A stretch of 64,000 nucleotides of DNA, from NCBI GenBank assembly GCA_934045075.1, contig OW203727.1:17544861-17608860 (forward strand), read 5' to 3'. The notes beneath the pieces were generated by a model. The model ran no database searches. It saw nothing but the letters and a program-made list of their open reading frames with translations, and was not told the DNA's origin. Positions within the stretch are counted from its first letter, which is position 1; each line of letters starts with the position of its first letter. Position numbers and translations under genes: made by a program. Below are positions 34,498 to 63,842 of the stretch, in pieces. The DNA comes from Yponomeuta sedellus (taxonomy: Eukaryota > Arthropoda > Insecta > Lepidoptera > Yponomeutidae).

Positions 34498-34980
34498 TTT
34501 TTAAAAACCTATTTAGAGGCTAAAAATTCCACTCATGCCGGGATTTGAACCCGCGACCTCTGTCTATCCGTGCCAACTGAGCTAATGGGCGACTCACCAG
34601 TATCAGTGAAATTTCGAACCCCTTTACATTATTCTCTGTATTACGTACGTACAGGCAGCGACATCTGGCTTAAGTAAATTGCATCACTTACAGCTCCGAC
34701 TACCTACTTTGCAGTTAGGTTTTTACATCGGAATGATATCACTGTACCCACATGATTATACTATTTCGCTGCCTGTACGTAATACAGAGAATAGTGTAAA
34801 GAGGTTCGAAATTTCACTGATGCCGGTGAGTCTCCCATTAGCTCAGTTGGAAAGAGCGCTGGCACGGATAGCCAGAGGTCGCGGGTTCGAATCCCGGCAT
34901 TGGTGGAATTTTTAGCCTCTATATAGGTTTTTAAAAATTGTCCTTAGCACGGGTTAGTGCATTAAAAATTAAAATAAAAA
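34498..34980. mobile_element. Family F SINE, inverted pair with 94-bp spacer, perfect 12-bp target duplication
   Basis: Flanked by TATTCCCAAGTA at 34486-34497 and 34981-34992. Left half is an inverted F copy (from TTTTTAAAAACC to about 34672), the centre is ~94 bp of other sequence, and the right half is a direct F copy (34767-34980) with the long tail GTCCTTAGCACGGGTTAGTG. Because one target duplication encloses both halves they arrived as one event. tRNA-like boxes are intact in the right half. Confidence 0.9.
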
Positions 34981-34992
34981 TATTCCCAAGTA

Positions 34993-35440
34993 GCCAGCCC
35001 TGAAATCGGTAAGAAAAAAAATCGCGCTAACAATATAGCTATAGTTATTGCACGAAACATCTGCTCATTTTTCACGTAAAGAGAACAAGTCTATTTTGAA
35101 ATAACACTATTATCATCAAAAGATTAATGCCATTCTATTCCACAAGCACAAACAGTCACACGTGCAGAAATTCCTTCAGTCACAATGTAGCAACAACATC
35201 TTTGATGAACTCCTATACGTTTTAATGTTCATAGTTTACTGCGCTCTAAAAGCGTAATGATCAATCTATTACAGGACAAACTAGTTAGGTACGAAACGCA
35301 AACTTTTGGAGGCGAGAAATACAAAATATGTACAAAGAACCTTACTGCCACAAATTTAAAGTCGCTTTAAGACAATGGAAATCATAAAGGCTTTACCACA
35401 AACCTTACTATTTTGCACACTGAACAAAATTGTTTTACTG
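34993..35440. other. Unassigned
   Basis: AT-rich, no match. Confidence 0.3.
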
Positions 35441-35449
35441 CAATTTAAT

Positions 35450-35694
35450 AACTTCATGAAGGAAAACATCGTGAGGAAATCTCAGTGTCTGAGGTGTGTT
35501 AATCCCTCAACGCGTGAAATTCCCAATCCGCGGTGGGCACGCGAGGTAATTTATCCCATGCTCTCTGTTCTTGAGTAGAGGTGTATGAAATGTGACAACT
35601 CAGGCAACTGAGCGCCTTACGTGGTCAAATACCTCAGCGCTTGACATTGCCAATCCGCGGTGGGCACCCGTGGTAATTAAGCCCGTAAATTCCA
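35450..35694 (+). mobile_element. Family B SINE, partly duplicated
   Basis: GAAGGAAAACATCGTGAGGA…CAATCCGCGGTGGGCAC occurs at 35458-35540 and its 3' part again at 35620-35670. Confidence 0.65.
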
Positions 35695-35797
35695 TATCAA
35701 CCGTTTGTATGTCCCCATTTCTGAGGCATGGGTCTCTTCCTGTATTGCAGGAAGGTTAGGCCATACTCCACCACGGGGGCCAAGTCCGGGTTGGTAC
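35695..35797 (-). mobile_element. Family S 3' fragment
   Basis: ATATCAACCGTTTGTATGTC…CTGTATTGCAGGAAGGTTAG…CGGGGGCCAAGTCCGGGTTG. Confidence 0.75.
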
Positions 35798-36491
35798 ATA
35801 TATACAGCAAAAATGATCTCTAAATAAATAACTCTCTATAACCTCTTGACTTAATATTAGCTAGTTGAAGTGACATGACCTAAGCGGTGAGTCTCTAAAG
35901 TGCATAGTTGTTCAATAGAATCATAATAGTCCGGTAATGTTCGTTTCATTCACACTATCCGTAGTCTAGTAACCAATCGCATTGCAATGGTATAACCCGT
36001 GCTACTTAACTCGCCGCCTTTCACGATTCGATCTTCTTCGCGAGAGATGCCTATTTAATTTGCGCGGGTTATACCCCTGGAATGACATTGCACTGCTATT
36101 GCTTTGTAGACTACCAAATTGAGGCAAATAACAACCACTATCGTGCTTATATAATTCTATTGACAAACTATGTAAGTATTAGACTCTAGGGCCTGGTCAC
36201 GTGTGCCGAAGAACCGATAGGCGATCGGGTACGATACGAAGATCCACGAAGACCACAAACGCAGACGTCCGCGAGCTCGATGAACCGACGGTCTGAGCTA
36301 TTACTGGCCATACCTCTCTGTCCTTGGACATCCTCATGTGGCTAGATGCCGAGAAGATACCCCTGCTTAGCTCGATATACTACAAAAGTTTGGGTAGTGT
36401 CAAACAAGTAGTGTCAAATAAAAATGTATTTTGGTGATTACTGACAAAGGATACGCGGGACCGAAATTAAACTTTGCTATACGTTAAGAGT
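35798..36491. other. Unassigned, with a GC-balanced block at 36180-36400
   Basis: The block (GGGCCTGGTCACGTGTGCCG…) matches nothing else here and shows no ORF; it may be host sequence or the edge of a DNA element. Confidence 0.3.
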
Positions 36492-36502
36492 ACACAAATA
36501 GA

Positions 36503-36876
36503 AGCGCTCGTGGCCTAGGCGAACCCAGTGATTGGAATCAATCACTTGAGTTAAGCAAGAACAGGCATGGTCAGGTACAGGATGGATGACCGTCCCGTGA
36601 CTACTGCTAGTGGCATTTTTCCGGGCGCTTCCGTGCTTCGCAAGGCACGTTAAGCCGTTGGTGCCGGCTGTCATATAATGGCAGTTGTTAAGCCATGTCA
36701 GAGGCCTTATGGGCGGCTAGATAACTTCTGACAGTAAGGCCAGCCACTGTCTTACATTCCTCCGCCAACCCGGACTTGGCCCCCGTGGTGGAGTATGGCC
36801 TAACCTTCCTGCGATGCAGGAAGAGACCCGTGCTCCAACAGTGGGGACATACAAGGGTTGATAACGAACGATAACG
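36503..36876 (+). mobile_element. Family S full-length copy with 11-bp target duplication
   Basis: 374 bp between ACACAAATAGA at 36492-36502 and 36877-36887. Head AGCGCTCGTGGCCTAGGCG, 5S-like block with GTACAGGATGGATGACCG, ends GGGTTGATAACGAACGATAACG (tail repeat). Confidence 0.85.
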
Positions 36877-36887
36877 ACACAAATAGA

Positions 36888-37080
36888 GGTTTCGTCGCGG
36901 TGAAAAGTGAGAATAACGAAATAAAAAATATATTGCCTTATAAGACTTTACATAGAAACCATTCGCAGGCTATAGTTTATTTTTAAATAAGTTTTTTTAC
37001 TGTACGATTTGTGTATCTCCTCAATGTCATATGTAAATAATGATAGCCTCCTCCTTTTTGGAAGTCGGTTAAAAACAAAA
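36888..37080. other. Unassigned
   Basis: AT-rich spacer. Confidence 0.25.
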
Positions 37081-37089
37081 CGAAGTTTG

Positions 37090-37125
37090 ATCCTCAAGGA
37101 GTAATGGAAATTACTCCTTGAGGAT
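37090..37125. repeat. Hairpin, 16-bp perfect stem
   Basis: ATCCTCAAGGAGTAAT, loop GGAA, exact complement; beside a decayed family B fragment (37130-37310). Confidence 0.9.
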
Positions 37126-37129
37126 GAGG

Positions 37130-37310
37130 ACTAAGGTTTCCCCATAACGTTTTCCTTCACTGTTAGCAATAGTAACCATTTGGTTACGTAAAGAATTAAA
37201 GAATTTACATTCTGTGAATCGTGAATGTCAATGTATAATGTAAGCTCTTGCCTTCGGGCTGTAGTGTAGTGCTACTATCATAACTTAGAAAACAAAGTAA
37301 AATGTAAGTG
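37130..37310 (-). mobile_element. Family B SINE remnant
   Basis: CCATAACGTTTTCCTTCACT and AACTTAGAAAACAAAGT match B, with the middle replaced. Confidence 0.45.
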
Positions 37311-37796
37311 GGTACGTACAGTGCTACACAAGAAATAAGTCTCGCGGATGTACCTGCGCAGATGACCAAATTTTGGATGTGCGGCAAGTTGATCGACCAA
37401 TCAGATGGTTTCATTTTATGGCATTCCGCGCGCCTTTGTTGCTATTGGTTGATTCAATGTCATCGATGCAGGTGACTATTAGTCTGGCATTATTAGCGTG
37501 AGCGAAATAGGTAGCGCTACTGCGGCAATCAATTCTGCACCTTAACCGTATCGGTTAAAGATCATGTTGAATGTACTTATAGCTTCGGGCACTTTCGTTA
37601 CACTTCTTCCTTTTATGATGTGTAGTACTGTACCTTATTACCTACCTATGCAATATCTAGTAAACTAGTGCTAGTGTTATACGTCACATCAACATAAAGT
37701 CAAGTTCATAATAATGAAAAATAAGTACATCGCCATAATATCCAACAAATAACTTGAACAAATGACTTTAACTTCGCATGAATGTATTTCGGCTCT

Positions 37797-37842
37797 GTCG
37801 CATCCTGTGCGAAGAGGGCGACCTCTTCGCACAGGATGCGAC
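37797..37842. repeat. Hairpin, 20-bp perfect stem
   Basis: GTCGCATCCTGTGCGAAGAG, loop GGCGAC, exact complement. Confidence 0.92.
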
Positions 37843-38069
37843 ATTGGACTTTAGTTTAGCCACACTTAAAACTTTATTGAAAAAAAAAAGTTCTTACATA
37901 TCCATCGGCAGCTCATTTCGCCTGCCTGTTTTTTGTTCACGTTGTCTGTCGGGAATTATACCTGGCATACCATCTGCATAAATTACACAAAATAATTTAC
38001 GTAAGTTATGTCTGTGTTTACGCAAAGCCTGGCCCAGGCGGAAATTCAAATTACTCGGTAACTAGTTTG

Positions 38070-38394
38070 ATATCAACCCTTGTAAGTCCTCACTGTCGGG
38101 GCACGGCTCTCGTCCTGCATTGCAGGAAGGTTACGTCATACTCCACCACGGGGCCAAGTCCGGATAGGTGGAGACTTGTAAGACCAGTGGTTAATCTTAC
38201 TGTCAGAAATGTTCAAGCCGCCCTGAGGCATCTGGCTTAATGCCTGCCATCTATCGACGGCATCCGGCACCAACTGCTTAACGTGCCTCGCGAAGCACTG
38301 AACTGCTCGGAAAATGCCACTAGCGTTAGTCATAGATGGTCACCCATCATGCTCTGAACCCGCCCTGTGTTGCTTAACCTTCGATCGATCGATT
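38070..38394 (-). mobile_element. Family S copy
   Basis: TATCAACCCTTGTAAGTCCT…GCATTGCAGGAAGGTTACGT…CGAAGCACTGAACTGCTCGG, and the 5S-like end at ~38335-38390. Confidence 0.75.
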
Positions 38395-38439
38395 CCTCGT
38401 AGCCCCGTGAATGTTTGTGACTCTTTACTAGCTAAGTAA

Positions 38440-38500
38440 ACATTGTTTACTTGTTTTTACTTGTGTGTACAATAAAGAGTTGTAATCTTATCTAATCTAA
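38440..38500 (+). mobile_element. LINE 3' end, (AATCT)n tail
   Basis: TGTGTACAATAAAGAGTTGT followed by AATCTTATCTAATCTAA. Confidence 0.5.
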
Positions 38501-38514
38501 TTCAATAATAATAT

Positions 38515-38756
38515 GTTTTTTTAATATATTTAGAGGCTAAGAATTCCACCTATGCCGGGATTCGAACCCGCGACCTCTGGTTATCCGTTCCAGCGCTCTT
38601 TCCAACTGAGCTAATGGGCGACGCACCGGCATCAGTGAAATTTCGAACCTCTTTACACTATTCTCTGTATAACGTATACCTTTAGCCTCTAAATATGTTT
38701 TTAAAAAAAATGTCCTTAGCACGGGTTATTGCATTAAAAATAAAAATAGTATAATT
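38515..38756. mobile_element. Family F SINE with 5' inversion, 11-bp target duplication
   Basis: AATAATAATAT at 38504-38514 and 38757-38767. From the left: a complete inverted F copy up to its 5' end (…CTCTGTATAACGTATACC), then directly the 3' part in plus orientation (TTTAGCCTCTAAATATGTTT…) with the long tail. Only ~30 bp are present twice, as expected of a twin-priming product. Confidence 0.85.
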
Positions 38757-38770
38757 AATAATAATATATC

Positions 38771-38816
38771 CTGGTCTAAAATAGGATACGCTGTGACATA
38801 TCCTATTTTAGACCAG
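38771..38816. repeat. Hairpin, 18-bp perfect stem
   Basis: CTGGTCTAAAATAGGATA, 10-nt loop, exact complement; immediately after the F insertion's duplication. Confidence 0.9.
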
Positions 38817-39075
38817 AACAAGTTATTGTGTTGTGTGAAAGCTCTTATTATTACTGAATTAGATTAGATAAGATTAGAAATCTTTCCCGGTTACCATAGT
38901 AACCGGGCAATGACATCACAAACATGGAAAAACACCCAGTCTGAGGCTTTTTATACTAATTTGCTCTGGCTGACTACTAAAGGTTCTGATTCGAGTTGGC
39001 ATCGAATTATTTATGAAAAGTGCCCTTAAAGAAAGACAAACTAGGAAAGTCAGAGTCAAAAGAATTGTATTCACT

Positions 39076-39135
39076 ATGCCGGCAGTTTTTCGCAGATCGT
39101 CATCTCACCTGGTCGGAGGGCGTCCCACACTACGT
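39076..39135 (-). mobile_element. RTE LINE fragment
   Basis: GCCGGCAGTTTTTCGCAGAT…CACCTGGTCGGAGGGCGTCC. Confidence 0.7.
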
Positions 39136-39569
39136 TACATAACATTACATAACTTTGCAAAATAGTGAAGAAAAGTTATATACAGAGCAGGGAGTAGTAT
39201 TACACTCGTGTGCTTTCTGCGAAAACCGAAACCTAATCTAGAGCCCGAGGTATATTCTAAAGGCTAACCGACTGTATTTAGCGTATTTGATAGCTATTAT
39301 GGCACGTTGATTTTACTATGGCTATCAAACCACCCAAAATTCACGAAGTACACACACAGTGACACACATACATACACACCGACCGATTTGAACCCTCTAT
39401 GACCCCCTTTGTCCTCAAAGCTAGTTCTAAAGATTAACTTATCTAAGTATGCTCATAAACTTGGGAATGTAATCAACAGCATATTATGACTAAAGAGGGT
39501 TGCATTCTGATGAAGTTTAATAGATGCCATTGTTACACCAGTACTAGACAGTATAATTATGTATAGATA
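39136..39569. other. Unassigned
   Basis: Contains a CACACA-rich stretch at 39350-39380; otherwise no feature. Confidence 0.3.
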
Positions 39570-39578
39570 GATAGATAT

Positions 39579-39839
39579 TGCTGTGTGGTGTCGGCCTAGA
39601 GAATAGCACCAACCCAAATTCTTCCCGCGGGTGTCGTAAAAGGCGACTAAGGGACTCAAACAGGGGGGTGGGCAGCAGCGCCCCCTGCAGTACAAATTCA
39701 CCAAACTGCGATCCCAACCCGCATGCCCAGCGTGGGGATTATGGGCATTACCCCCCAACGATGGCACAACCTTGCGCTATGGCGCTCATTAGGGGAGGGC
39801 TATATGTCCAGCAGTGGACTTATATAGCCTGAAGAAGAA
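39579..39839 (+). mobile_element. Family R element, complete, 9-bp target duplication
   Basis: GATAGATAT at 39570-39578 and 39840-39848. Same order as 31910-32176; ends TATATAGCCTGAAGAAGAAG. Confidence 0.82.
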
Positions 39840-40189
39840 GATAGATATAGAATACACTTATTTGTTCATAAATATGGAATAATATTAAAGCGCTAATTAC
39901 TTCACAGACATCACTTTTAGTAATAAGGCTGCTGTCTGTATTATTAGAATAAGAAATATTAAGATGCTTAGGGGCGCTAACTAGCGCCACCAATGGAAAA
40001 ACAATCATAACTTGTTTTATGCCACACCTGGCCATAAAGTGTAGACATAAAAAGATGTACACAACACGGGAGGTAATAAAGAAAGCTCTCGATCGCATAT
40101 TGTCGTCCCTCGCTTGCAGCTCGGGCCGCAAACTTCTGCGATCTCGGCCTTTCTTTGTATTACCACCCTAGTTTTGTAATGTACTATTA

Positions 40190-40385
40190 AAAACCTATTT
40201 AGACTCTAAAAATTTCACCCATGCCGGGATTCGAACCCGCAACCTCTGGCTATCCGTGCCAGGCACGGATACGGTTAGCCAGAGGTTGCGGGTTCGAATC
40301 CCGGCATGGGTGAAATTTTTAGCCTCTAAATAGGTTTTTAAATTTGTCCTTAGCACGGGTTAGTGCATTAAAAATAAAAATAGTA
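40190..40385. mobile_element. Family F SINE, palindromic, 13-bp target duplication
   Basis: TAATGTACTATTA at 40177-40189 and 40386-40398. Arms 40190-40260 (inverted) and 40262-40385 (direct) turn around on one base (A at 40261) inside GTGCC-A-GGCAC. The right arm has a 5-bp insertion (ACGGT); only the right arm has the long 3' tail. Confidence 0.9.
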
Positions 40386-40499
40386 TAATGTACTATTATA
40401 ATACGGTTTTTCAAAACAAACATGAGAAATCTTAATACCTGTGGTAACAATTTTTAGAACATATGCCTAGCCTAGAATGTAGTATAAATATCCTACCGA

Positions 40500-40715
40500 C
40501 TTAAATCGATTTCCGCTATAAACGGCCATTTTGGCGGAAACCAATTAAAGTCCTAGATTGTTGATCCTAGGTTCTAGACTGTAGGTTCTATATATAGTTA
40601 GGTATCACAGTTCTTAAGATTTCTCATTTTCACTTTTAGATAAAAACGAAATATAAAACAAGTTAGATTTTTAATATTATGATATATATTTAGCGCCCCC
40701 TTAAGAAAAGTTTCC
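40500..40715 (+). repeat. Family N repeat
   Basis: TTTGGCGGAAACCAATTAAAG, GTAGGTTCTATATATAGTTA, ATCACAGTTCTTAAGATTTC as at 24690. Confidence 0.6.
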
Positions 40716-41089
40716 ATTTTTATGTGCAATAAACTGTTCTTTCTCTATCACTAATAACATGATTAACAAAAAGAGGGTTTGTTTTCTAATAACACAGATT
40801 AAGTTTATTTTTTTAATTTAACATGGTTGTTTTCATACAGCCAAAAAAAATTAATGTAGTCTGCATCCTACATCATGCGTTTAAGGGTTAAGAGATTGTA
40901 CTTACCATTTTTGCAAATACGATTTCTAAGATAGTTTTTTAAGTTACCTATGATTTTTTTATTGGCTCTAGTTAGATCACTGGATCACTTTCGTTAATAG
41001 AAAAATTTCTATTTTTATATCATAATTTAATATCTTATTATATTATCTTATTGCATTATAATATAATTATACTTTCCTTTAGCAACTTT

Positions 41090-41216
41090 CCATCGTAAGG
41101 TTGTCTGGAAGAATTGCTTTTAGCAATAAGGCCGCCAATTGTACTATGTATATTTGTAATCATTTTCTATTTGTGGTTTTTCCAGTGTACAATAAAAAAT
41201 ATTCTTATCTTATCTT
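41090..41216 (+). mobile_element. LINE-J-like 3' end
   Basis: GGTTGTCTGGAAGAATTGCT, TTTAGCAATAAGGCCGCCAA, CAGTGTACAATAAAAAATAT, then TTATCTTATCTTA. Confidence 0.7.
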
Positions 41217-41539
41217 AATATTAATAAAATATTAATGAAATTATACAAACGATTTCTACATGTTAAATCTAAACCAAAACGGCTTATTATTAGTATGCCT
41301 ATTGGTAAAAATTGGTGAAAAACAAATGTATTTTTTTCTTTGTAGCGCTAGTGTAAGCCCCTTAAGGATTAATTACTTAATCTTAGTTAATCGTGCCTTA
41401 CTAAGTTAATTTAATGATTGATGAGGGATTATCCCTAAGTAACATGTGTTGGTGGCTTACGACGGATTTACACAACCATTTAATTTAATGCTTTCAAGTA
41501 CAGCAGACAGAAAATCAAGCACAACACGCAGATACGCCA
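41217..41539. other. Unassigned
   Basis: AT-rich, no feature. Confidence 0.3.
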
Positions 41540-41660
41540 TAATAGATAGAATATTTTCTATTGCATGTAAACCAGGAATTACATAAGAGACTTAAAACAT
41601 AACAGTACAGTACAATTGGCGACCTTATTCCTAAAAGTTACTTCTTCCAGACAACTATTG
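41540..41660 (-). mobile_element. LINE-J-like 3' end
   Basis: ATAGATAGAATATTTTCTAT…GGCGACCTTATTCCTAAAAG…TTCTTCCAGACAACTATTGA. Confidence 0.6.
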
Positions 41661-42046
41661 ATAGAAAAAAAGAAACGGAAACTGAATGACTGGTAGTCGG
41701 CGCATCTAAACAATATTAGACAAGACATTGTATAGTTGATACACATATATAAAAGGTCCATAAATATGAAATAAATAAAAATACAAAAAAATATAGGACG
41801 AAAAATATACCCAGATAATACTAGAAACGGATTTCACAAATAAAAATAAATATAGCTTATAATAATATAATTATAGTAGGTATAGCCTTTAATTTCACAA
41901 ATTATTTTACATTTCATAAAATATCTCTAAAGTACTTAATCTTCTATTTACGTGCATAAGTTAAACATAATTATAATAATTTGGAAGAAATCACCAAGTT
42001 AATTTTCGTCACAATAAAAAAAAAATAAGTTAGTTATTAAACTTAC

Positions 42047-42274
42047 TTAAAAACCTATTTAGAGGCTAAAAATTTCACCCATGCCGGGATTCGAACCCGC
42101 AACCTCTGGCTATCCGTGCCAGCGCTCTACCAATTGAGCTCAATTGGTAGAGCGCTGGCACCGATAGCCAGAGGTTGCGGGTTCGAATCCCGGCATGGGT
42201 GAAATTTTTAGCCTCTAAATAGGTTTTTAAATTTGTCCTTAGCACGGGTTAGTGCATTAAAAATAAAAATAGTA
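42047..42274. mobile_element. Family F SINE forming a 184-bp spacer-less palindrome
   Basis: TATTAAACTTAC at 42035-42046 and 42275-42286 (12-bp perfect duplication). Arms 42047-42138 and 42139-42230 are exact complements apart from one mismatched pair (…CTATCCGTGCC / GGCACCGATAG…); the centre is GAGCTC. The long tail (TTGTCCTTAGCACGGG… to 42274) follows the right arm only. Both arms keep B-box-like GGGTTCGAATCC. Confidence 0.93.
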
Positions 42275-42290
42275 TATTAAACTTACATCA

Positions 42291-42435
42291 AGGAAAGACT
42301 AAGTTTGGAGTTTTTTTGTCCTTTTTTTCTCCAAAATGATCTAGATTTTGAAATGGACACCTAGTTTGAATTGTAACGTTCATTAAGCCGCAGTTTCTGT
42401 GCTACTTTGAATAAAACCTTTTCATTTCATTTCGA
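42291..42435 (+). mobile_element. Family T LINE 3' end
   Basis: AGTTTGGAGTTTTTTTGTCC, CCAAAATGATCTAGATTTTG, TTGAATAAAACCTTTTCATT then TTCATTTC. Confidence 0.8.
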
Positions 42436-42486
42436 AAAATTGTGATTTTGCACTCTGCTCAGATAATAAAACATATCTTTTTTATG

Positions 42487-42780
42487 TAGCCCCTATACGT
42501 CCCACTGCAGGGCACAGGCCTTCTCTCAGAGAGAAAATATGGGCTTCATTACCACGCGTGCCCACCGCGGCTTGGCGATTTCCAACGCTGAGGTATTTGA
42601 ACACCTTACACACTTAAGTTTCCTCACGATGTTTTCCTTCACAGCTAGCTAGTGGTACCGCTGCTATAACTTGATATAACTTAGAAAACATATTCATTAG
42701 TACATGTCTGCACTGAGAATCGCACCTGGGTCACTCGCTTCCGAGTCCATTGTTCTACGTACTGGGCTACCGCTGATCTA
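42487..42780 (-). mobile_element. Family B SINE, longest copy
   Basis: Carries the 3' segment (GTCCCACTGCAGGGCACAGG…CCCACCGCGGCTTGGC), body (CACGATGTTTTCCTTCAC) and a decayed tRNA-like head (42700-42778). Confidence 0.75.
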
Positions 42781-43224
42781 TCTTGTGACATGTAGACAAT
42801 TTATTAATAATTATCAAAGTTGTTTATTTCGGACGTAGTAAACTTCGTTACCTTTATTCCCGTCGTTTACTTCCCGTCGCATGTCTATTAAAAAGAAAAA
42901 CCAACCATGAAGATTTTACTAAAAAAATTCATATAAATTTTTATGATTCATGCAAATACGTGTACCTATTTCTAAAAAGAAGCTACTAATTTGTTTCAAT
43001 ATCAGATTTAATGATTTGATTGAATGAGTTAGATTAGGTTTCATTTCATTTCAACTCATTAAATTTCATTTTCATTTCATATCAATAAAAAAATTCTACT
43101 GAAAACTTGGCTGTATGGGCATAGTTCCTTTGCCTACCAGAATGGGTGAAGAAAAAAAAAATCTCTGCTTATATTCTTTAACGGTTGGCGCTATTTTCCA
43201 AATATTTTTTCTTTATTAAATTGC
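42781..43224. other. Unassigned
   Basis: Includes TTTCATTTCATTTCAACTCA near 43037, a lone family-T-like tail. Confidence 0.3.
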
Positions 43225-43410
43225 TTATTTTTTCGCAACTGTATTAAAAATAGTCGTTCAGTACACGTGCGGAACCGTCATTGCAACTTGTTCCGACTGT
43301 CAACCCTCGCCTTCGGCTGCGCCTCGGCTCGGGTAGACATTTGACGGAACTCTTTGCAATGACAGCCTTTGCGCACTTGTAATGAAATATACTATTTCTA
43401 ATTTGTCTCG
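43225..43410. mobile_element. Possible MITE with weak inverted ends
   Basis: GTACACGTGCGGAACCGTCA…TTGCAA is roughly mirrored by TTGCAATGACAGCC…GCGCACTTGTA, with a CG-rich centre (CTTCGGCTGCGCCTCGGCTC). Arms imperfect; no target duplication defined. Confidence 0.4.
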
Positions 43411-43990: not shown

Positions 43991-43991
43991 A

Positions 43992-47058: not shown

Positions 47059-47084
47059 CAATAATAACTTCCACACAACACAAT

Positions 47085-50504: not shown

Positions 50505-50825
50505 TTATACTATTTTTATTTTTTTAATGCACTAACCCGTGCTAAGGACAAATTTAAAAACCTATTTAGAGGCCAAATATTTCACCCATGCCGGAATTCG
50601 AACCCGCAACCTCTGGCTATCCGTGCCAGCGCTCTACCAAATGAGCCAGTGGGCGACTCAACTGTACGTAATAAAGAGGATAGTGTAAAGAGGTTCGAAA
50701 TTTCACTGATGCCGGTGAGTCGCCCATTGGCTCAATTGGTAGAGCGCTGGCACGGGTAGCCAGAGGTTGCGGGTTCGAGTCCCGGCATGGGTGAAATTTT
50801 TAGCCTCTAAATAGGTTTTTAAAAG
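50505..50825. mobile_element. Family F SINE, inverted pair, minus polarity
   Basis: AGAAATTAA at 50496-50504 and 50826-50834. Long tail on the left (TTTTTTTAATGCACTAACCC), inverted copy to about 50663, then a direct copy with complete 5' end (TAATAAAGAGGATAGTGTAA…) to AATAGGTTTTTAAAAG. The two copies differ at several bases (for example CCGGAATTC versus CGAGTCCCGG). Confidence 0.85.
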
Positions 50826-51029
50826 AGAAATTAAATTAAAGAAAATACATGTGCAAAGGTGAACTTATCCCCGTGAGAGATTTCTTCAGCAAACCTTGGA
50901 GAGTCGGAGAAGCGAGAGAAACGCGTTTATGCAAGTGCACAACATATACTACATACTCAATACACTTATATAATTACATAGATGACAAAATCCTTCCAAT
51001 ATAAATATCTACCCAATTTTTTTTTATTT

Positions 51030-53292
<2,263 letters not shown>

Positions 53293-53523
53293 TATTCATG
53301 GACATATTACACAGATCTCGTTAGCCCTATACTAAGTACAACTAAATGACTTGTGTTATAGGTGCTAACTAGACGATAGATTTAATACAATAAATACATA
53401 GATAACATCCAAGACCCGAGACAAACTAGAAAAGTTCGTTTCCTAGTTTGACCCGGCCGGAGATCGAACCCGAGACCTTCGGTTTTACAGTCAGCGTGCC
53501 AAACCGCTGCGCCACCGAGGCCG
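53293..53523 (-). mobile_element. Family D SINE (tRNA-headed)
   Basis: Minus-strand head GGCCTCGGTGGCGCAGCGGT (A-box-like), TCGGGTTCGATCTCCGGCC (B-box-like); body AACTAGGAAACGAAC…GTCTCGGGTCTTGGATG; 3' end GAGATCTGTGTAATATGTCC joining the (AAAT)n array. Confidence 0.82.
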
Positions 53524-54740: not shown

Positions 54741-55310
54741 ATTTATTTATTGTAAACATATGAATAAATATTATATCCTTTTTATATTTATATTTAGTCT
54801 TATGTTAGTACGTGTTTTGTTTCTCTTGTGTAATAAAGAATATTATATATATTTTACTTTGTTATCTGTGAAATTAGGTGCCATTTTAACTACTTTTTAA
54901 AAATAACGACAAAACTGCCGATTTAAGTTATCGAACAAGGTAGTGAAGTAAAAAATTAAAACATAGCTGTTAAAACAGACCCAATGAAGGACTGTTCTGG
55001 TAATTTGCGCTATTGGCCTACTGCAACTAATCACCTTACCAAATGGAACATCTGGTCTCTTACTTTTCATATAAATCGTACGACATTGGGGGTCACCATT
55101 GGGAGAAGAAGCAAGATTTGCTGCAGGTGTATTTTTAAAAGCACATAAATAAACGACCGTGCGCTTGCATCCGGCGACGCGGTGACATTCGACTATGAAA
55201 ACAGATAGTTTTAGAGGTTTTCGGGTCAACATAAACAATGTAGAAGAGGCACTGTATTGATTTATCTACGATGGATTTATTTATCTATTTCTCTATGTCC
55301 AGCAGTGGAC
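54741..55310. other. Unassigned
   Basis: No feature apart from short frames. Confidence 0.3.
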
Positions 55311-55380
55311 GAGTACAAGAGTTGAGTAATTACGTGTTACCTAATGAATAATCGCGATTAGACCCGTTAAATATATAACT

Positions 55381-55536
55381 GCAGTACACTTCCACCAAAC
55401 TGTTATCCCCAATCCGATTGCCCAGCGTGGGGATTATGGGCATTACACCCCAATGATGGCACAACCTAGTGCTATGGCGCTTATTAGGGGAGGGCTATGT
55501 CCAGCAGTGGACTAATATAGCCTGAAGAAGAAGAAG
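55381..55536 (+). mobile_element. Family R, 5'-truncated, 11-bp target duplication
   Basis: AATATATAACT at 55370-55380 and 55537-55547. Begins at GCAGTACACTTCCACCAAAC; ends AATATAGCCTGAAGAAGAAG. A truncated copy with a clean duplication shows that truncation happened at insertion. Confidence 0.85.
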
Positions 55537-55638
55537 AATATATAACTATGTACAAGAGTTGAATAATGTTTTTCAATTTCAATTTAAGTAAAGCGTCGTA
55601 ATGTGGGCAAGCAGTGAACGGATTTGGGTTTGGTTAAT

Positions 55639-55708
55639 GATATTGATGATAGTCATTTCTGGATTATTTCGGATTCGAAATAATCCGGAAATGACTATCA
55701 TCAATATC
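55639..55708. repeat. Hairpin, 32-bp stem
   Basis: GATATTGATGATAGTCATTT…, loop GGATTC, complement with one mismatch. Confidence 0.92.
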
Positions 55709-55969
55709 TTCGGTAATATTCGGTAGATTTACCGAAATTAGTCGAGGTCTTTGGCTCTTAAATAAATAATAGTACTTTACATGAATGGAAACCTCTATGA
55801 GCTTATCAATAGATTATTGATGATTTATTAAAATAATCAGCTGCAGCTAGGGCAGCACAACATCACGATAAGGTTTATCCTCTTATCGGTTAGCGCCATC
55901 TTGCTAAGTTTTACCGCATAAAGCAAGATGCCGTGATTTGTCTTCAGTCATCATTTTCACACCTAATTT

Positions 55970-56075
55970 CAATATTATTAAGACCGCCAATTGTATAACA
56001 TTACTTAGATTTAAAAAATAATGGTTGTATTCTTTTTTCTGGTTGTGCAATAAAATGTTCTCTGTCTATCTATTA
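55970..56075 (+). mobile_element. LINE-J-like 3' end
   Basis: ATTAAGACCGCCAATTGTAT…TGGTTGTGCAATAAAATGTT then CTCTGTCTATCTATT. Confidence 0.6.
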
Positions 56076-56236
56076 TGTTTTTTTGATTTTATTTTCTTTT
56101 TTTCTGTTTAGAGTTTGTAAACGATAATGCCTGTCTCCAAGTTATGTTCATATAAAGTAAGCCCGTATTTGGCCTGAGATTAATTATATTTATAACTGCG
56201 TTAATGTTAATTTACTACTGCTATGGGTTTTGTAAA

Positions 56237-56553
56237 TCCTACTAATATGATAATCGCAAAAACTAGTAAGTATGGACGGATGTTTGTTACTCTTTCACGT
56301 AAAAACTACTGAATATATTTTAATGAAACTATACAATAATATAGCTTATACGTCAAAGTAATACATAGGCTACAATTTATGAGGATATTGTTTGAATTGT
56401 CCAAAATATCAAGTAAGTAGGAAAATAAAAACCTGCGAGCAATTCTGACGTGCGCTGCCAAAACTGCGCTGCCAAAAGGTTTTGTACGCAACGCTATATA
56501 TAAGCTATTTGAAATAATAATCCTGCGCAGACAAAGTCGCGGGCTCCAGCTAG
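56237..56553 (+). mobile_element. Non-autonomous Helitron, complete
   Basis: 317 bp: A|TCCTACTAATATGATAATCG at the 5' side; interior TTGTTACTCTTTCACGTAAA, TAATACATAGGCTACAATTT; 3' end AAGTCGCGGGCTCCAGCTAG|T. TC start, CTAG end and A/T insertion site fit Helitrons. No protein. Confidence 0.8.
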
Positions 56554-56584
56554 TAAATGAAATAAATAAATGCTGCTACTCAAT

Positions 56585-56836
56585 CTTCTTCTTCAAGCTA
56601 TATTAGTCCACTGCTGGACATAGCCCTCCCCTAATGAGCGCACGGTTGTGCCATCACTGGGGGGTAGTACCCATAATCCCCACGCTGGGCATGCGGGTTG
56701 GGGATCGCAGTTTAGTGGAATTAAACTGCAGGGGGTGCTGCTGCTCACCCCCTGGTTTGTATCCCTTAGTCACCTTTTAAGAAACCCGCGGGAAGAATTA
56801 GGGTTGGTGCTATTCTTTAGACTGACACGACACAGC
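56585..56836 (-). mobile_element. Family R element, complete, 7-bp target duplication
   Basis: ACTCAAT at 56578-56584 and 56837-56843. CTTCTTCTTCAAGCTATATT at the tail side, GACACGACACAGC at the head side. Confidence 0.8.
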
Positions 56837-56843
56837 ACTCAAT

Positions 56844-57384
56844 AGTAGGATAAAATTTTAATCTTAACCTAGTGCTCCCCTAATAGGCCCGACTGTATTT
56901 TATTATACCCTTATCAGAGATTTTGCTACAGTAATTTAGTTCAAAGCCAGCTTATAGGTAAGAATTTACGGCATGTGTGTTTAGATCGTAAAAACGTGGC
57001 AAACTTGTTTCATGTAGGATTATATCGTAAGGAAAGCGTATTTTCATTGAATCAGTTATGATAATCTTGTATTCCGAAACCATAAAAACTACTTAACAGT
57101 CTGTATGTTTAAAAACATTATAAAAAAAGGAACGCTTTTTACCTCGCTAGGTTATTAAACGCATTATTAGCCGGTGACCAGCCCACGGCCAATTCAATTT
57201 GCTAATCGAAGTATTGTCAAGCCAACAGTTTAATCATATGTTAAGTCACCGAGTATTGCTAATATAGATCGGCAAATGACAATTCTATGAGAATATTTGC
57301 ATATGCTTTGGTGAGCGGTCAATAGAGCTTCGGTATGATTCAATTATCCTATACCTTTTTTATGTAGTCTATATGCGTCACACT
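56844..57384. other. Unassigned AT-rich region
   Basis: No feature. Confidence 0.3.
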
Positions 57385-57808
57385 TCATAACAAATGCATC
57401 CGACAGAGAACCAAAGTTATCGACATAGCTCAGAGTATCAGCAAGCTGAAGTGGCAGTGGGCTGGCCATATCTCGCGAAGAATCGACAACCGTTGGAGTA
57501 AACGTGTTCTTGAGTGGAGACCGCGACTCGCGAAACGATAGCCGCAGGGTGCGATAGCATAGCAGGGTGTCATGTACCTACTTTTAAAATTACAAATACG
57601 AACTGTAATGAGACATGACAATGCAATAAATGAATATGAATATGAACGTAGTGTAGGACGCCCTCCGACCAGGTGGGATGACGATCTGCGAAAAACTGCC
57701 GGCAGATGCTGGATGCGGCAAGCTGAAGACAGGGCGCTATGGAGCTCATTAGGGGAGGGCTATGACCAGCAGTGGACTACATAATATAGCCTGAAGAAGA
57801 AGAAGAAA
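57385..57808 (+). pseudogene. RTE LINE C-terminal fragment, interrupted
   Basis: Reads RQRTKVIDIAQ…, KWQWAGHISRRIDNRWSKRV, LEWRPRL to 57540; after ~100 bp of foreign sequence it resumes RSVGRPPTRWDDDLRKTAGR, CWMRQAEDRALW, GEGY…QQWTT stop, then ATAATATAGCCTGAAGAAGA. The best view of the intact RTE C-terminus. Confidence 0.85.
57541..57644 (+). mobile_element. Short LINE 3' end inserted in the RTE fragment
   Basis: ATAGCCGCAGGGTGCGATAG…GAGACATGACAATGCAATAA, then ATGAATATGAATATG tail. It splits CGAAACG from AACGTAGTGTAGG, leaving at most a 4-bp duplication (AACG). Confidence 0.6.
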
Positions 57809-57809
57809 A

Positions 57810-57985
57810 ATGCGTCACACTGTAGGGCACAGTCCTTCTCCTTAGAGAGAGGTTATGGGCTTAATAACTACGCGTACCTCCGCAGACTGGCAATTTCTAG
57901 CGCAGAGGTATATGAACACGACACGGGATCCCTCACGACGTTTTCCTTCGACGTTAGCGAGTGGCATTGCTAACTGTACTATCGA
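57810..57985 (-). mobile_element. Family B SINE, 5'-truncated
   Basis: TGCGTCACACTGTAGGGCAC…CCCTCACGACGTTTTCCTTC…GTTAGCGAGTGGCATTGC. Confidence 0.65.
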
Positions 57986-58344
57986 ATATTTATACTTTAA
58001 GGCCTACCTCGAATAAATACAACAGTGCGGGGCTAAATTAACCAAAATCGTGATGTACCACTTACAAGGTTATAAGAATTTCATGATTTAGCCAGCCTTC
58101 CCTCACAGTATCTGGTTGTTTTTTTCAGATAATATACGTATGCAAAACGAAGAAGAAAACTCTGGAATTATTTTGACACGTCATAGAGTAGTTCCAAAAG
58201 AGTGTTCCAAAGAGAGTGGTTTTGCATTAACTTATTGCACTTTTGTTTAAGTAAAATTGTTTTGTAACTCCTGCTAGCTCAACGGGCTTGATTTACAAAC
58301 TTCTCTGATTTATCATAAAATATACTATACTATAACATTATATA
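57986..58344. other. Unassigned
   Basis: No feature. Confidence 0.3.
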
Positions 58345-58452
58345 CTCCTCAACGCTTAAAATTGCCAGCCCGCGGTGGGCACGTATGGTAATTAAGCCAA
58401 TATTATGTCTCTAGGAGAAGATCTATACCCTGCAATGGGACGTATATAGAAA
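58345..58452 (+). mobile_element. Family B SINE 3' fragment
   Basis: CTCAACGCTTAAAATTGCCA, CGCGGTGGGCACGTATGG, CCCTGCAATGGGACGTATAT. Confidence 0.55.
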
Positions 58453-58721
58453 ACACGGAAAAAAATTCAAACAATTTTTATTGTGTTCACAACATCTGAT
58501 ATATCAATACTATGGTTCTTCAAAAATTTGTCGCTAGCAAATTTTCTGTCGCATTCCGGTAATAAAATATTATGTGTTCATAACTTATCCTATTTGTGGG
58601 TCTAGAGGCATGAAATACTGCAAAGGAATTTATTACGAATGAGGTCTGGAATTAAAGCCATTACAATGTATGAGTTTTATGTTTTATAATAATTATGTAA
58701 GCTATGTTAATTAAGGACTTT

Positions 58722-58850
58722 GAAAAGACTAAGTTTGGAGTTTTTTTGTCCATTTTTTCTCCAAAATGATCTAGATTTTGAAATGGACACCTAGTTACAC
58801 CTAGCCGCAGTTTCTGTAATACTTTGAATAAAACCTTTTCATTTCATTTC
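58722..58850 (+). mobile_element. Family T LINE 3' end
   Basis: AAGACTAAGTTTGGAGTTTT…GAATAAAACCTTTTCATTTC; lacks ~15 bp (the GTAACGTTCATTA segment) relative to other copies. Confidence 0.8.
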
Positions 58851-58924
58851 ATTACACAAAGTAGTTTATAACATCGAAACCTACTTTGAAATTTTCTAAA
58901 ATAATTTATGGTTCCTAAAGGTAT

Positions 58925-59055
58925 TGGGCAAAGGAGAAGGGAAAAAATTGACTGAAGCTACCATCCCTAGCCATGAACAGAAATAAATGGAAAGCCTTTG
59001 TATCAGCCCCAGACTGTACGAGGAGTAAATACGAAGAAGAAGAAAGGTATTATAT
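58925..59055 (+). mobile_element. LINE-H C-terminal fragment with (GAA)n tail
   Basis: Encodes a decayed LTEATIPSHEQK… and KWKAFVSAPDC… relative of 23195-23302, then CGAAGAAGAAGAAAGG. Confidence 0.55.
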
Positions 59056-59339
59056 AACAGACGAAACTTTGTGTGGATCGTCATTTTCTAAGTTCGAAAT
59101 GTGGAAGTTGGGCTTACCTAAAACTCTCAATTTTAGAAAAAGGCACATGTCTTCTGATATATTTTATTTTATTTATTAGGCACACCAACATCATACATAC
59201 AGAACATGGTACAAAAGAGTTACAGGAAGATAACATTACGTGTATGTACACCACTTATAGGTAAGCACAGCATTTATATAAATTGAGCTTACATCGTTAA
59301 AGAGTTAATGTTACAGAAATGATAATTAAATAAATAATA

Positions 59340-60440
59340 GATCAACTAAACTGCCTTTGTATATACCAATTTTTTGAAAGCTTGGAATGTTTGATGGGTA
59401 ATGTCAAAGTCATTGCTCAGATCATTGTAGAAACGACACATTCGAGAGATGGGTCCATTGTAAGACACATTATTGTTAGATGTTGGAACTTGGAATAAGC
59501 GAAAGAATCTTTGAGGGCGGTTGCTGGCTCTAAGGTTAAAGAGTGATATCCCATTGGTGTCAAGCGATCCATTTATGAGTTTATGCAGCAGCATAAGGTC
59601 AGCTGAATGTCTTCTGGACTCGAGGCTCTGAAAATCGAAGTGCTACAGGCGCTGAGTGTATTCAGGGAGCACACGCCGTTTGCCTGTCATCGCAGATAAG
59701 TGCCTAATGAAACGGCATTGGATTGATTCGATTTTTTTATGTGACAAGCATAGTATGGTGACCAAATGGACGAGCAGTATTCGAGAATAGATCTGACCAG
59801 TGACTTGTACAGAATGACCTTGTTGGAAATTTGTTTAAAGGGTTTGGTCATGCGCAGCATGAAAGCTAATGTGCTGTTGGCCTTACGAACCATGGCGTTA
59901 ATATGAGGCCTAAAAGACATTTGTGAATCAAATAACACGCCCAAATCCCTTATCACATGTACACGATCAAGAGGAATACTACTGATGGTGTATTTGTAGT
60001 CGATATATTTATTAATTTTAGTGAATGTAATAAACTGGCACTTTTTAACATTGAGGGACATATCGTTGGTTAAGCACCAATTTTGTATAGTATCCAAATC
60101 ATTCTGAAGCCTAAGACAGTCTTCCACACAGCCAATAGATTCAAAATTTTTAATGTCGTCTGCATATGCTAGACTAGTAGTTTAAGTAAGAGATCGTTTA
60201 AAAATATGATAAAAAGTAACGGTCCTAAATTGGAACTCCAGAACACGCCGAAAATGGCTGCGATCTGTATCCATAAACTGCGACAAACTGGCTACGGTTA
60301 TGGAGATATGATTCTATCCACCTAAGTAGAGACCCGTGAATGCCGATGTGACAAAGCTTCGTAATCAGTATGGAGTGACTTACTCGATCGAAAGCCTTAG
60401 CAAAATATATATGTATAAAATAGCCGTTAAAGTGCACGAT
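59340..60440 (-). pseudogene. Jockey/CR1-type LINE reverse transcriptase, decayed
   Basis: Minus-strand fragments of one RT in order: FAKAFDRVSHSILITKL and SLLRWIESYLHNRSQFV (about 60420-60225, first catalytic-Asp region changed to FAKAFD), GPLLFIIFLNDL near 60210, YADD-like remains near 60165, NDLDTIQNWCLTNDMSLNVK and DLGVLFDSQMSFRPHINAMV (60127-59687), and the C-terminus RASNRPQRFFRLFQVP, RMCRFYNDLS, TFQAFKKLVYTKAV stop (59594-59346). Several frameshifts and stops, no endonuclease. Different family from the 2.3-7.2 kb LINE. Upstream it is cut by the family E repeat. Confidence 0.8.
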
Positions 60441-60465
60441 AAGGATTCATATAGAACCTGCAAAT

Positions 60466-60638
60466 CAAGTCAACATTCCAATTTTCCTAGTTTGATTGAA
60501 ACGAGGTTTGTTATTTTGTTAAAGTGGCTTTCGCCGAAACGGACACACGACAGTGACATTCTAACTCGTATCGCGACTGGTATAAATGCGAAAATCGATC
60601 GGAAATGGATAGGTACCTTTCCGTGGCGCTGACGTTAT
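60466..60638 (-). repeat. Family E repeat, copy 2
   Basis: Inverse of 30421-30590, with TTTCGGCGAAAGCC and GATCGATTTTCGCATTTATA-type words; sits where the LINE RT is cut off. Confidence 0.7.
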
Positions 60639-60845
60639 ACTATCCCACAAGCCACGGGTCACTCTGGCCACATGTTTGCTTACATCCGTCAGTTTACCGC
60701 ACCGCGTTTACCGTTTGCTCAACCGCAATCAATGAAATGAAAATGACAATAAAGTTATCAACAAATACAAGTAGCTAGCTACGACACTAGCAATAGCCAC
60801 CACAAAAGGTCGGGCCTGAATCGTGGAGGCCTAAGTTTTTTTTAT

Positions 60846-61079
60846 CTTGGACAGATTATTACACAGATCTCGTTAACCCTATACTAAAAACAACTAAATG
60901 ACTTGCGTTACTGGTACTAACTCTACGATAGATTTAACACAATAAATACATTGATAACATCCAAGACCCGAGACAAACTAGAAAAAAAAAACGTTTCCTA
61001 GTTTGACCCGGCCGGGGGACCGAACCCGAGACCTTCGCTTTTTAGTCAGCGTGCCAATCCGCTGCGCCACTGAGGCCGT
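60846..61079 (-). mobile_element. Family D SINE
   Basis: Second full copy: head GGCCTCAGTGGCGCAGCGGA, TCGGGTTCGGTCCCCCGGCC; body as at 53293; 3' end GTCCAAGATAAAAAAAAC, an A-rich tail without the AAAT expansion. Confidence 0.82.
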
Positions 61080-61330
61080 CAATTGTAGGCTGTTTGTGTA
61101 AATTGTAGGGATTGTTAGGTTACAGGAGTGTGATAAATTAAGTATCAAAAATTAATTTACGTAACAAAGATAAAAGAGAAGGATTGAAAGAAAGAAAACA
61201 TTTATTGCAACAACAGTTACACACAAATAAATTAAAGTACAAAGACAAAGAAAGTATTAACCGTAAAAATAACTAAAAGACACATTACAAACTTTGTCGC
61301 GGTGTGTCTCTGCTGCTGCAAATGGCAACT

Positions 61331-61637
61331 GAGTGCTTAGTGCGAGTTTTTTAACTACTCGATCGCGTTAACGTAAACTCATATTTCTATGGCATCGAGG
61401 AAGCGCCACCTAGCGACAAGTATGGAAATTAAAATTGCTGAGTGCGAGTTGTAATGGCTTACGTTGAGAAGTGAACACGTTTACCTGCCAAAACACGAAT
61501 AAACGCGAGTGCGAGTTGTACTGTGACAGCGTTTTGCCAGTTCGACCGGTTAACTTACTCATACACACTACTCAATGCTCGATTAACGCGGCATTAAAGT
61601 TATTCGATTGGATCTGTCAAACTCGCACTAAGCACTC
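61331..61637. mobile_element. Candidate MITE with perfect 19-bp inverted ends
   Basis: GAGTGCTTAGTGCGAGTTT (61331-61349) and its exact complement (61619-61637), 307 bp in all. The interior repeats GAGTGCGAGTTGTA twice (61438, 61508). No ORF; no clear target duplication. Confidence 0.5.
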
Positions 61638-63379
61638 TGACTCAGCATAGTGCTGGGGGCGTGAACCCTCAGCGCTGATTTTCAGTCAGTACCGAAAGCC
61701 CTAAGTGCTCTAGAGCGCGGCGTGGCCTGTTGCAAAGTAATAAATAAAACAATATAATAAATACATTCAACATAACAAAAAAAACAGTCAACAGAATAAT
61801 AAACGTGTGTAAACAAAATAAAAATATTGCTTTATAGTCAGGCCAACTTAGCGAAATATGTCAATAAATAAATAATACATATCTGTGCATATTCATATAA
61901 AAGAAAAAGATTGTGGTGCAAAATGTGTAATTAGTGAAGGTTGTGGGTGTGTGTGTGTGTGTACTCTGCACTGTATAAGGTCTCTAAAAGTTCAGAATAA
62001 TATAATGTGGCGCTAAAATAACACCACTGCTATAAAATTGTGCAAAAAATTGAGATGAGAGGGAGAGGCAAATATTGCGTCTTCTTCTTCTTTCACATGC
62101 CTTTTCACCATCGTGCAATAAGCTTAGTTTGGCCGGAATATAAGTTGAAGGAAAATGCTCGTTTCTTTTCCTACAATATCGACTTTCAGACAGATTTTTT
62201 TTGTGTTTTTACGTTGTGGCAATTTAGTTCTATCCAATAATATTTACAGTGTTCGTTTGGTCAGTTTAAATCGTTGACGAAAACACTGAAGACGAAAATA
62301 TTAAAACATAGTTTTTTTAATTACAATGTTGCTTATAACGTTATTTATTATCACACCAATGAGCGAACGGTAAGGAGATGCGGTGGGTCGATATACGTAG
62401 AGATAATTTAAGGACAATTTAAAAAAAATATTGTAATATACTGTTGTGTCAGTGTTGTGTCTCATAACAACATTAATAAAAACTTTGTTAAAAGATTTTT
62501 TATGTTATTTTTGTCAGTCCTAATATACAGAGCAGAGTGGTAAGTAACTCATTACCTACGTATATCAAAGTTAGTTGCTTCCGCGCCATAATAATATGCT
62601 ACGTGACTCCGCAGCAGAGGCTACGAAACTCGTAGCGGCGCTACGTGATTGCTACGCGCGGTAAGCCTACGGTAAGCCTACGCTTTGATCACTTTAGATA
62701 TAAACATGGCATAAAATGATAACAATTTTTAATTTTGAAATAACAACTCCATGCCCAGACAACAAAACGTTTTTAATTAAACTTTCACTCCATGTATTTA
62801 CCTAGTGGGATTTTATTTGTTTTTCGAAATTAAATGAGAAACAGATTTTCTTAACGCTAACTTTTAAAATAGTCACGGAATAGCTCGTCTTTGTACAAAT
62901 TCGCTTATTGTGAAACAAATATTTTTCTATTCCATGATGATAAGAACCACTCTGATAATAATATAAATTTAATATTTACAGTGCTTAAAATAGGCACTTT
63001 TGGGGGTTTTTTTTTAAATTTAATTTAATCTTTGCAATCGTAAAAAGAAAAAGAATTGCTTAAGTGACATAGAGAACCTACATCAAACTTAGACTGGAGT
63101 GCCATTGTTTCAATACCCAAGGCAATATAGATAAAGTCAAAAATTGACACAAAAAAAAAATTTGTTTGGGATTTTTACAGGTTTAAAAAAATGCAAAACT
63201 CAGCTTTGGACAGAGTAAGAGTAATTAATTTTAGTAACTAAAAACTAAGACGATGGCGTACACACGTCTTCACGTGAGTCAAGATTTTTGCTTGAGTTTA
63301 AATGCGTTTCATCGCCCCGAAAATTGCCAAAAACTTACAGCTACGATAGATAGAACCATACAAAGAAAAGAAAATAAAT
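61638..63379. other. Unassigned region
   Basis: Contains a short (GT)n run at 61944-61962 and a 12-bp tandem CGGTAAGCCTA at ~62659-62682. No domain or repeat match. Confidence 0.35.
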
Positions 63380-63391
63380 AGTTTGTTCACA

Positions 63392-63537
63392 TGATTACAT
63401 TATTTTTAATGCACTAACCCGTGCTAAGGACAATTTTTAAAAACCTATTTAGAGGCTAAAAATTCCACCCATGCCGGGATACGAACCCGCGACCTCTGGC
63501 TATTCATGTTTTTAGCCTCTAAATAGGTTTTAAAAAA
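63392..63537. mobile_element. Family F SINE, minus, with short inverted cap, 12-bp target duplication
   Basis: AGTTTGTTCACA at 63380-63391 and 63538-63549. Long tail on the left, minus copy to …GGCTATTCATG, then only the last ~30 bp (TTTTTAGCCTCTAAATAGGT) in inverse orientation. Confidence 0.88.
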
Positions 63538-63661
63538 AGTTTGTTCACAGCTATGGAAACCAAAAATCTTAAAACACTTTCACAGCTTCATAAAACTCCC
63601 TAACATCAATATTCATTTCAATCATTTATTACCTAAGATTAAGTTAGGTAAGGTGATACAT

Positions 63662-63842
63662 ACTATTTTTATTTTTAATGCACTAACCCGTGCTAAGGAC
63701 AATTTTAAAAAAACCTATTTAGAGGCTAAAAATTCCACCCATGCCGGGATTCGAACCCGCAACCTCTGGCACAGAGAGCCAGAGGTTGCGGGTTTGAATC
63801 CCGGCATGGGTGGAATTTTTAGCCTCTAAATAGGTTTTTTCT
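63662..63842. mobile_element. Family F SINE, foldback, 13-bp target duplication
   Basis: TAAGGTGATACAT at 63649-63661 and TAAGGTAATACAT at 63843-63855 (one mismatch). Arms from AAAACCTATTTAG… to CTCTGGC and back from GCCAGAG; 7-nt centre ACAGAGA. Long tail on the left only. Confidence 0.88.

Follow-up and report, generated by a model that had tools for sequence, protein, structure and literature searches.

The window analysed here, i.e., the whole stretch of 64,000 nucleotides at positions 17,544,861 to 17,608,860 of contig OW203727.1 (G000:C6:17544861-17608860) of the lepidopteran Yponomeuta sedellus (assembly GCA_934045075.1, 657.5 Mb in 57 contigs), holds ten insertions of a short repeat with a tRNA-derived region, family F. 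They were located by BLAST, short matches to the tRNA part alone being excluded, and seven of them join an inverted and a direct arm, as a reading made from the sequence alone had stated. What that sequence-only reading gave as F covers the 3' part of the full unit, which measures ~308 bp and extends ~105 bp further on the 5' side. The unit has two alternative 3' ends. One of them, the T5A4 site S, lies within the run GGTTTTTAAAA near unit position 265 (unit 261-267), and the other, L, reads ...AAAAATAG(TA) near unit 308, ~40 nt further and beyond a small hairpin (GCAC-GGGTTA-GTGC) that separates the two. In the list that follows S x L and L x S denote foldbacks with one outer edge at each of these ends, in order from the left, arms are given in unit coordinates, and TSD is the target site duplication.

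34497..34976, S x L foldback: S arm inverted, 1-267; L arm direct, 92-305; TSD TATTCCCAAGTA at 34486-34497 and 34981-34992
38518..38751, S x L foldback: S arm inverted, 105-266; L arm direct, 240-308; TSD AATAATAATAT
40187..40385, S x L foldback: S arm 188-263; L arm 193-308; TSD TAATGTACTATTA; arms concordant
42047..42274, S x L foldback: S arm 169-263; L arm 169-308; TSD TATTAAACTTAC
50508..50824, L x S foldback: L arm inverted, 156-308; S arm direct, 102-265; TSD score 11, the two copies not identical
63400..63537, L x S foldback: L arm 197-300; S arm 238-266; TSD AGTTTGTTCACA
63661..63839, L x S foldback: L arm 200-308; S arm 188-261; TSD TAAGGTGATACAT, one mismatch
986..1148, plus strand, simple copy ending at S: 103-265, with TSD
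28910..28994, minus strand, simple copy ending at L: 213-298
21953..22100, plus strand, simple copy with its 3' end at neither S nor L: 105-250

Each of the seven pairs is enclosed by one direct repeat with a score of 10-13. When the left and right flanks of different copies were paired at random (600 pairs), a score of at least 10 was reached in only 1.8% of them, so the seven TSDs of the window cannot be put down to chance, and each pair is a single insertion, as had been claimed. With the real flanks this score was reached in 31 of 77 clusters, all seven window foldbacks among them. The outer edges follow a rule that differs in part from the one first described, in which the edge of the inverted arm always fell on the same internal site. 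One edge does lie near S in seven out of seven (in 38518 the sequence there has diverged, and 63661 lacks the A run). However, it stands on the left in 34497, 38518, 40187 and 42047 and on the right in 50508, 63400 and 63661, and the opposite edge is the L end in all seven, so that “inverted” and “direct” describe nothing but orientation. The site first described is one of two fixed starts ~40 nt apart, which are used as a pair. Two further points of the earlier description were borne out: the T5A4 site is also the 3' end of the simple copy at 986..1148, and the turn-around is different in every window foldback. That of 42047 is palindromic, with an Rfam tRNA match on both strands. An inverted repeat (CCTGGTCTAAAATAGGATA ... 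TATCCTATTTTAGACCAG) at about 38765-38820 adjoins the 38518 foldback.

The pairing of the two ends was counted over the window and two samples from elsewhere in the assembly. One of these is unbiased and consists of 18 random 10-kb stretches with 30 F insertions (one cluster at a stretch edge excluded, as were two of 20 draws, on contigs that were too short), and the other is biased and consists of 39 further places picked by similarity to positions 988-1148 of the window (loci L002-L008 and L028-L059; six edge clusters excluded). The copy set leaves out L001, which is the window's own copy, and L027. Among foldbacks having both outer ends at S or L, 31 of 34 combine one S with one L, and a count at least as high would be expected with a binomial p of 3.8e-7 under free combination at one half. 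The classes were assigned partly by eye: the script labels of L013:5521 and L012:773, due to spurious weak hits, were changed, L005:1320 was taken as two separate S x L foldbacks and the first part of L034 as S x L, and L004 and L055, in which S is combined with a shortened L tail, were not counted among the 34.

The two arms of a foldback are alike. At 21 informative sites, 18 pairs of opposite adjacent arms (L037, L053 and the second part of L034 are counted here) gave 103 comparisons, of which 90 match; shuffled partners agree at 63% and none of 2000 shuffles reaches the observed value, indicating that the arms derive from one RNA or from one source locus. Later gene conversion between arms could have added to this agreement. 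Tandem neighbours match in 110 of 140 comparisons (16 pairs; 28 of 2000 shuffles are as high) and comprise clear mixtures, among them L004 with six of 21 sites matching, from which it follows that some tandems join different RNAs. The arms also overlap in unit coordinates in 27 of the 31 S x L foldbacks (median 64 bp, up to 176 bp). The S arm contains more body sequence (>3 nt) in 22 of the 31, the L arm in eight, and one pair is equal, perhaps because extension begins earlier or runs faster on the S-side strand. In 20 of the 31 the S arm has 5' sequence missing from the L arm and the L arm has the tail missing from the S arm, and thus neither arm can have been copied from the other. At the turn-arounds, eight of 43 junctions overlap by at least 4 bp, where 1.5% would be expected, and 18 of the 43 contain filler (this total includes junctions of foldbacks other than S x L). 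More complex arrangements exist as well: at L017:1810-2255 foldbacks are nested and their flanks are themselves inverted, with several inversions at one site, and at L040:1-400 flanking host sequence is inverted along with F copies.

From the window the sequence-only reading had concluded that the family inserts mostly as foldbacks, and this does not extend to the genome. The 30 insertions of the random stretches comprise seven S x L foldbacks, four other inverted arrangements, seven simple S copies, eleven simple L copies and one other. The window is enriched in S x L foldbacks (7/10 against 7/30, Fisher p = 0.018), and for inversions of any kind the figures are 7/10 and 11/30 (Fisher p = 0.14); window and random stretches together give 14 S x L among 40 insertions. 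Foldbacks are common outside the window, but they are not the majority. Extrapolated from 30 per 180 kb, F would amount to ~110,000 insertions genome-wide.

Most simple copies terminate at S or L. The S ends are sharp, with T5 followed mostly by one to five A and varied adjoining target sequence, whereas L occasionally continues beyond 308 into the following unit (63392, by eye). We considered termination by RNA polymerase III as the cause of S and rejected it: an upstream T5 run, GGAATTTTTAGCC, is near the end of one copy only (L013:7802, at 238), and the S ends mostly have one to five A after the T5. An excess of 5' ends is found at unit 102-106, within CTGTACGTAATACAG (5/71 in the unbiased set, 9/92 in the biased set), perhaps an RNA 5' end or a pause site. 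F units also occur head to tail, often as partial tandems, with the recurrent junction AAAAATAGTATA-ATCATG. The tRNA-derived stretch, for which several copies exceed the Rfam gathering score, is internal, with its start at unit 162 and many copies reaching further upstream, in contrast to the promoter region at the 5' end that characterizes a short interspersed nuclear element (SINE). By this match F has a promoter of the RNA polymerase III type that stems from a small RNA, and it would be transcribed from there.

The same end rule is found in an abundant autonomous Penelope-like element (PLE) of this genome, PLE-A. PLEs were found with a reverse transcriptase query, and the best 150 of 742 candidates were scored; these matches all have 53-56% identity and many lie within 791-codon open frames. 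In the copy at L066 the open reading frame (ORF) runs from MSTARV... to ...PPC over 783 aa, with RVT_1 (E 8.3e-9) and a YVDD motif, and its end is GIY-YIG-like (VYKLDCECGSSYIGQTKRTIAERVKEH), as recognised by eye from the motif. Of 7990 candidates scored against its protein, 2925 are relatives at E <= 1e-10; the best named ones come from butterflies and moths (Euphydryas editha at 65%; also Colias and Loxostege), and an Anolis carolinensis protein matches at 40% over 99%. No relative was found in PDB at E <= 0.01, and viral contigs gave neither a PLE relative nor a match to the F end pattern. A Pfam search for GIY-YIG (21 candidates) gave one gene only, SLX1-like by reading.

Those best 150 matches form 109 clusters, 29 of them head-to-head (counted only if both arms include the reverse transcriptase region) and none tail-to-tail, with 12 tandem neighbours at a period of ~2704 bp. 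Nine head-to-head inserts from the 29 had their ends classified, and seven of the nine are S x L with TSDs of 12-13 bp, a count that includes C9:18034210, where the script ran past the S end into the TSD. In PLE-A, S lies directly before the ATG and L 33-39 nt into the ORF. The random stretches hold a 142-bp S x L foldback of PLE-A (L018:5371-5513, TSD AAATTTGTTCCA) and, in another stretch (L012), a simple L copy.

What is known of PLE insertion agrees with these arrangements (statements on published work refer here and below to excerpts of the papers). A purified PLE cleaves and extends both strands, and its reverse transcription starts at two adjacent internal sites that bracket a “tail”; the enzyme is predicted to be a dimer, and the later insertion steps are described as yet to be validated (PMC11167929). 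The typical Penelope insert has inverted pseudo-long terminal repeats, one of which may carry an optional 31-bp tail, and self-priming was proposed to explain it (PMC3846280). The copy ends of F near 265 and 308 look like such adjacent start sites with an optional tail of 30-40 bp, and its foldbacks have what is expected of a PLE: inverted ends head to head with the tail on one of them, a single TSD well beyond the random pairings, and an AT-rich target (TSDs are 81% AT, n=37, against 62% for the window). This anatomy is the signature of Penelope-like elements and not of a SINE driven by a long interspersed nuclear element (LINE). Given the shared anatomy and the same S x L rule in the autonomous PLE of this genome, we take F to be moved by PLE-type chemistry, and the likely reading is that it is a non-autonomous element of Penelope type, with a tRNA promoter, mobilised in trans by a PLE of the same genome. 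A unit of ~308 bp is too short for an ORF with reverse transcriptase and GIY-YIG, so F can at most be a non-autonomous member of the group.

In the insertion reaction that we infer, a PLE enzyme would cut an AT-rich target on both strands, ~12 bp apart, and two reverse transcriptase subunits would sit on the 3' region of one F RNA, each extending one nicked strand. S would be the starting point of one subunit and L that of the other, with the small hairpin in between, and each subunit would copy toward the 5' end and stop at a variable point. Joining of the two cDNA 3' ends through short microhomology or filler would then give an S x L foldback within one TSD, extension of one strand only would leave a simple S or a simple L copy, and a jump of the enzyme onto a second RNA would produce a head-to-tail dimer. 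The order of these steps, like the template jump itself, is proposed. Of the priming that the sequence-only reading had suggested, this retains the use of both nicks, with the cDNAs joined 5' to 5' and one start at T5A4, and gives up the LINE and SINE setting that was implied.

Several results weigh against this reading. Some foldbacks break the rule: L x L at L037 (8-bp TSD) and at L013:1527 (no clear TSD), S x S at L053 without clear TSD, and eight with an outer end at neither site (L004, L017:1810, L021, L022, L029, L038, L040, L055). The two remaining PLE-A inserts of the nine are one S x (+12) with a 13-bp TSD and one unclassified. In bulk reactions in vitro the start sites are alike on both strands (PMC11167929). 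The start regions of F and PLE-A have a weak similarity that does not convince: the S-to-L local alignment score is equalled by 112 of 2000 shuffles, and that of the tail alone is reached in 116 of 2000 shuffles and also in 770 of 5000 43-mers drawn at random from the window. The two start-site windows taken together do better, their score being matched by 91 of 20000 random windows and, among AT-rich windows, by 91 of 5000. A PLE with an F-like leader was not found with the one start-codon pattern tried, which gave 17 places, the 15 listed ones being F-like. Pfam reports no GIY-YIG for PLE-A, and Rfam gave no hammerhead match either in five loci with F copies or in the PLE-A copy L066. As leads only, we note a likeness by eye between F and PLE-A (AAAATA-C/G-TATA at L, AG-T4/5-AA at S) and the possible reading of the F tail as LSLARV beside MSTARV in PLE-A. 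At G000:C10:701204-701720 (L081, L088, L090) a PLE-A S end is joined straight to F from about unit 245, followed by more F units; the junction at ~701242 could be a template jump between PLE and F RNAs, again a lead and not proof.

The most serious competitor is a LINE-driven SINE inserted by twin priming, with one start at the long 3' end and the second nick priming at the internal T5A4 of the same RNA. A tRNA-derived promoter and TSDs are what it predicts, and it would account for same-source arms and for foldbacks that combine a 3' end with an internal site. Classical twin priming of the L1 type is not known to copy long stretches of one RNA twice. In F some stretch was copied twice in the 27 foldbacks with overlapping arms, S also serves as the 3' end of simple copies, and the same S x L rule operates in an autonomous PLE. 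The 3' ends of two window LINEs are unlike that of F by eye, no full search for a LINE partner having been made. L1 inversions (PMC4476161) resemble F in that the second nick primes inside the RNA and the inversion lies within one TSD, but differ in that the second start of F is fixed and its stretches are copied twice. Altogether we hold this explanation to be unlikely. Joining 5' to 5' after two independent events at the same target, with a separate RNA primed at either nick, would readily give twice-copied stretches and arms with different 5' ends. Free pairing of S and L would then be expected, not 31 of 34 S x L, and the agreement of the arms far exceeds the shuffles, whereas some tandem neighbours differ (6/21 at L004). 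Two RNAs from one source locus would likewise agree at the diagnostic sites, and still we regard such an origin as improbable.

Less credit still is due to a foldback master that was copied as a unit and whose turn-arounds were shifted by later deletions. The likeness of the arms within a copy would follow from it, and yet turn-arounds vary by copy, junctions carry overlap or filler, and arm lengths are very unequal, either way round; we judge it very improbable. The same low standing goes to self-priming (snap-back) of one cDNA or antisense RNA, as proposed for Penelope (PMC3846280), which would yield head-to-head inverted repeats and palindromic junctions such as that of 42047. It is contradicted in the 20 of 31 foldbacks where neither arm is derivable from the other, and the 11 others are compatible with it. 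The foldbacks are known here from assembly sequence alone, and an assembly artefact or chance neighbours might be suspected. One TSD round many pairs, the many loci on many contigs and the unequal arms leave this suspicion next to no probability.

The window has other repeats as well. At 2498-6691 there is a LINE with endonuclease and reverse transcriptase frames (Pfam), which ends within TTATC repeats at about 7210. The interval 13230-15043, partly within a GC-rich stretch, has retrotransposon-like frames that include part of a reverse transcriptase, and a tetranucleotide array of more than 2 kb covers 51024-53320, where several minus-strand frames are open as YLFI repeats.

Among described systems, the closest to F are Poseidon_Ac (PMC11167929) and the Penelope of A. 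vaga (PMC3846280), which share with it two starts of reverse transcription 30-40 nt apart, extension of both strands, tandem units, inverted ends with optional tail, short TSDs and AT-rich targets. F differs from them in having no ORF and a tRNA-derived region, and in that the pairing has been counted insertion by insertion. PLE-A has the S x L rule, the head-to-head arrangement and the tandem units in common with F, but is autonomous and has only weak sequence similarity to it. Metazoan non-LTR retrozymes are also non-autonomous tandem units of ~300 bp with TSDs, and PLEs with minimal hammerheads are reported from some retrozyme-bearing genomes (PMC7229834); unlike them, F gave no hammerhead. 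The lepidopteran SINEs HaSE, PxSE and Metulj (PMC3272025, PMC8010984, PMC6685494) resemble F in their tRNA-derived region and in reaching thousands of copies or more. They are discussed as LINE-dependent, and inverted insertions are not described in the excerpts; they are set apart from F by these descriptions and by the internal tRNA part and the two 3' ends of F. PLEs are abundant in a butterfly, according to the monarch genome paper. A literature search, most of whose matches are known by record only, surfaced no PLE-mobilised SINE and no count of start-site pairing.

The F counts fit the biochemistry of PMC11167929 and contradict the self-priming of PMC3846280 for two thirds of the foldbacks. 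Beyond the former, they show both sites in use in nearly every insertion with two arms, each site on its own strand. We infer that a PLE mobilises F, with a single RNA for both arms and a two-subunit geometry, and on balance we are inclined to see here a PLE-dependent SINE-like element at the order of 100,000 insertions whose S and L starts are split between the strands by one dimer on one RNA. The rule of one S arm and one L arm, of the same source and within one TSD, is a direct prediction for the PLE insertion reaction. If F is a PLE passenger, partnerships between SINEs and PLEs join those between SINEs and LINEs, and further insect “SINEs” that form foldbacks and have two 3' ends may have to be classified anew.

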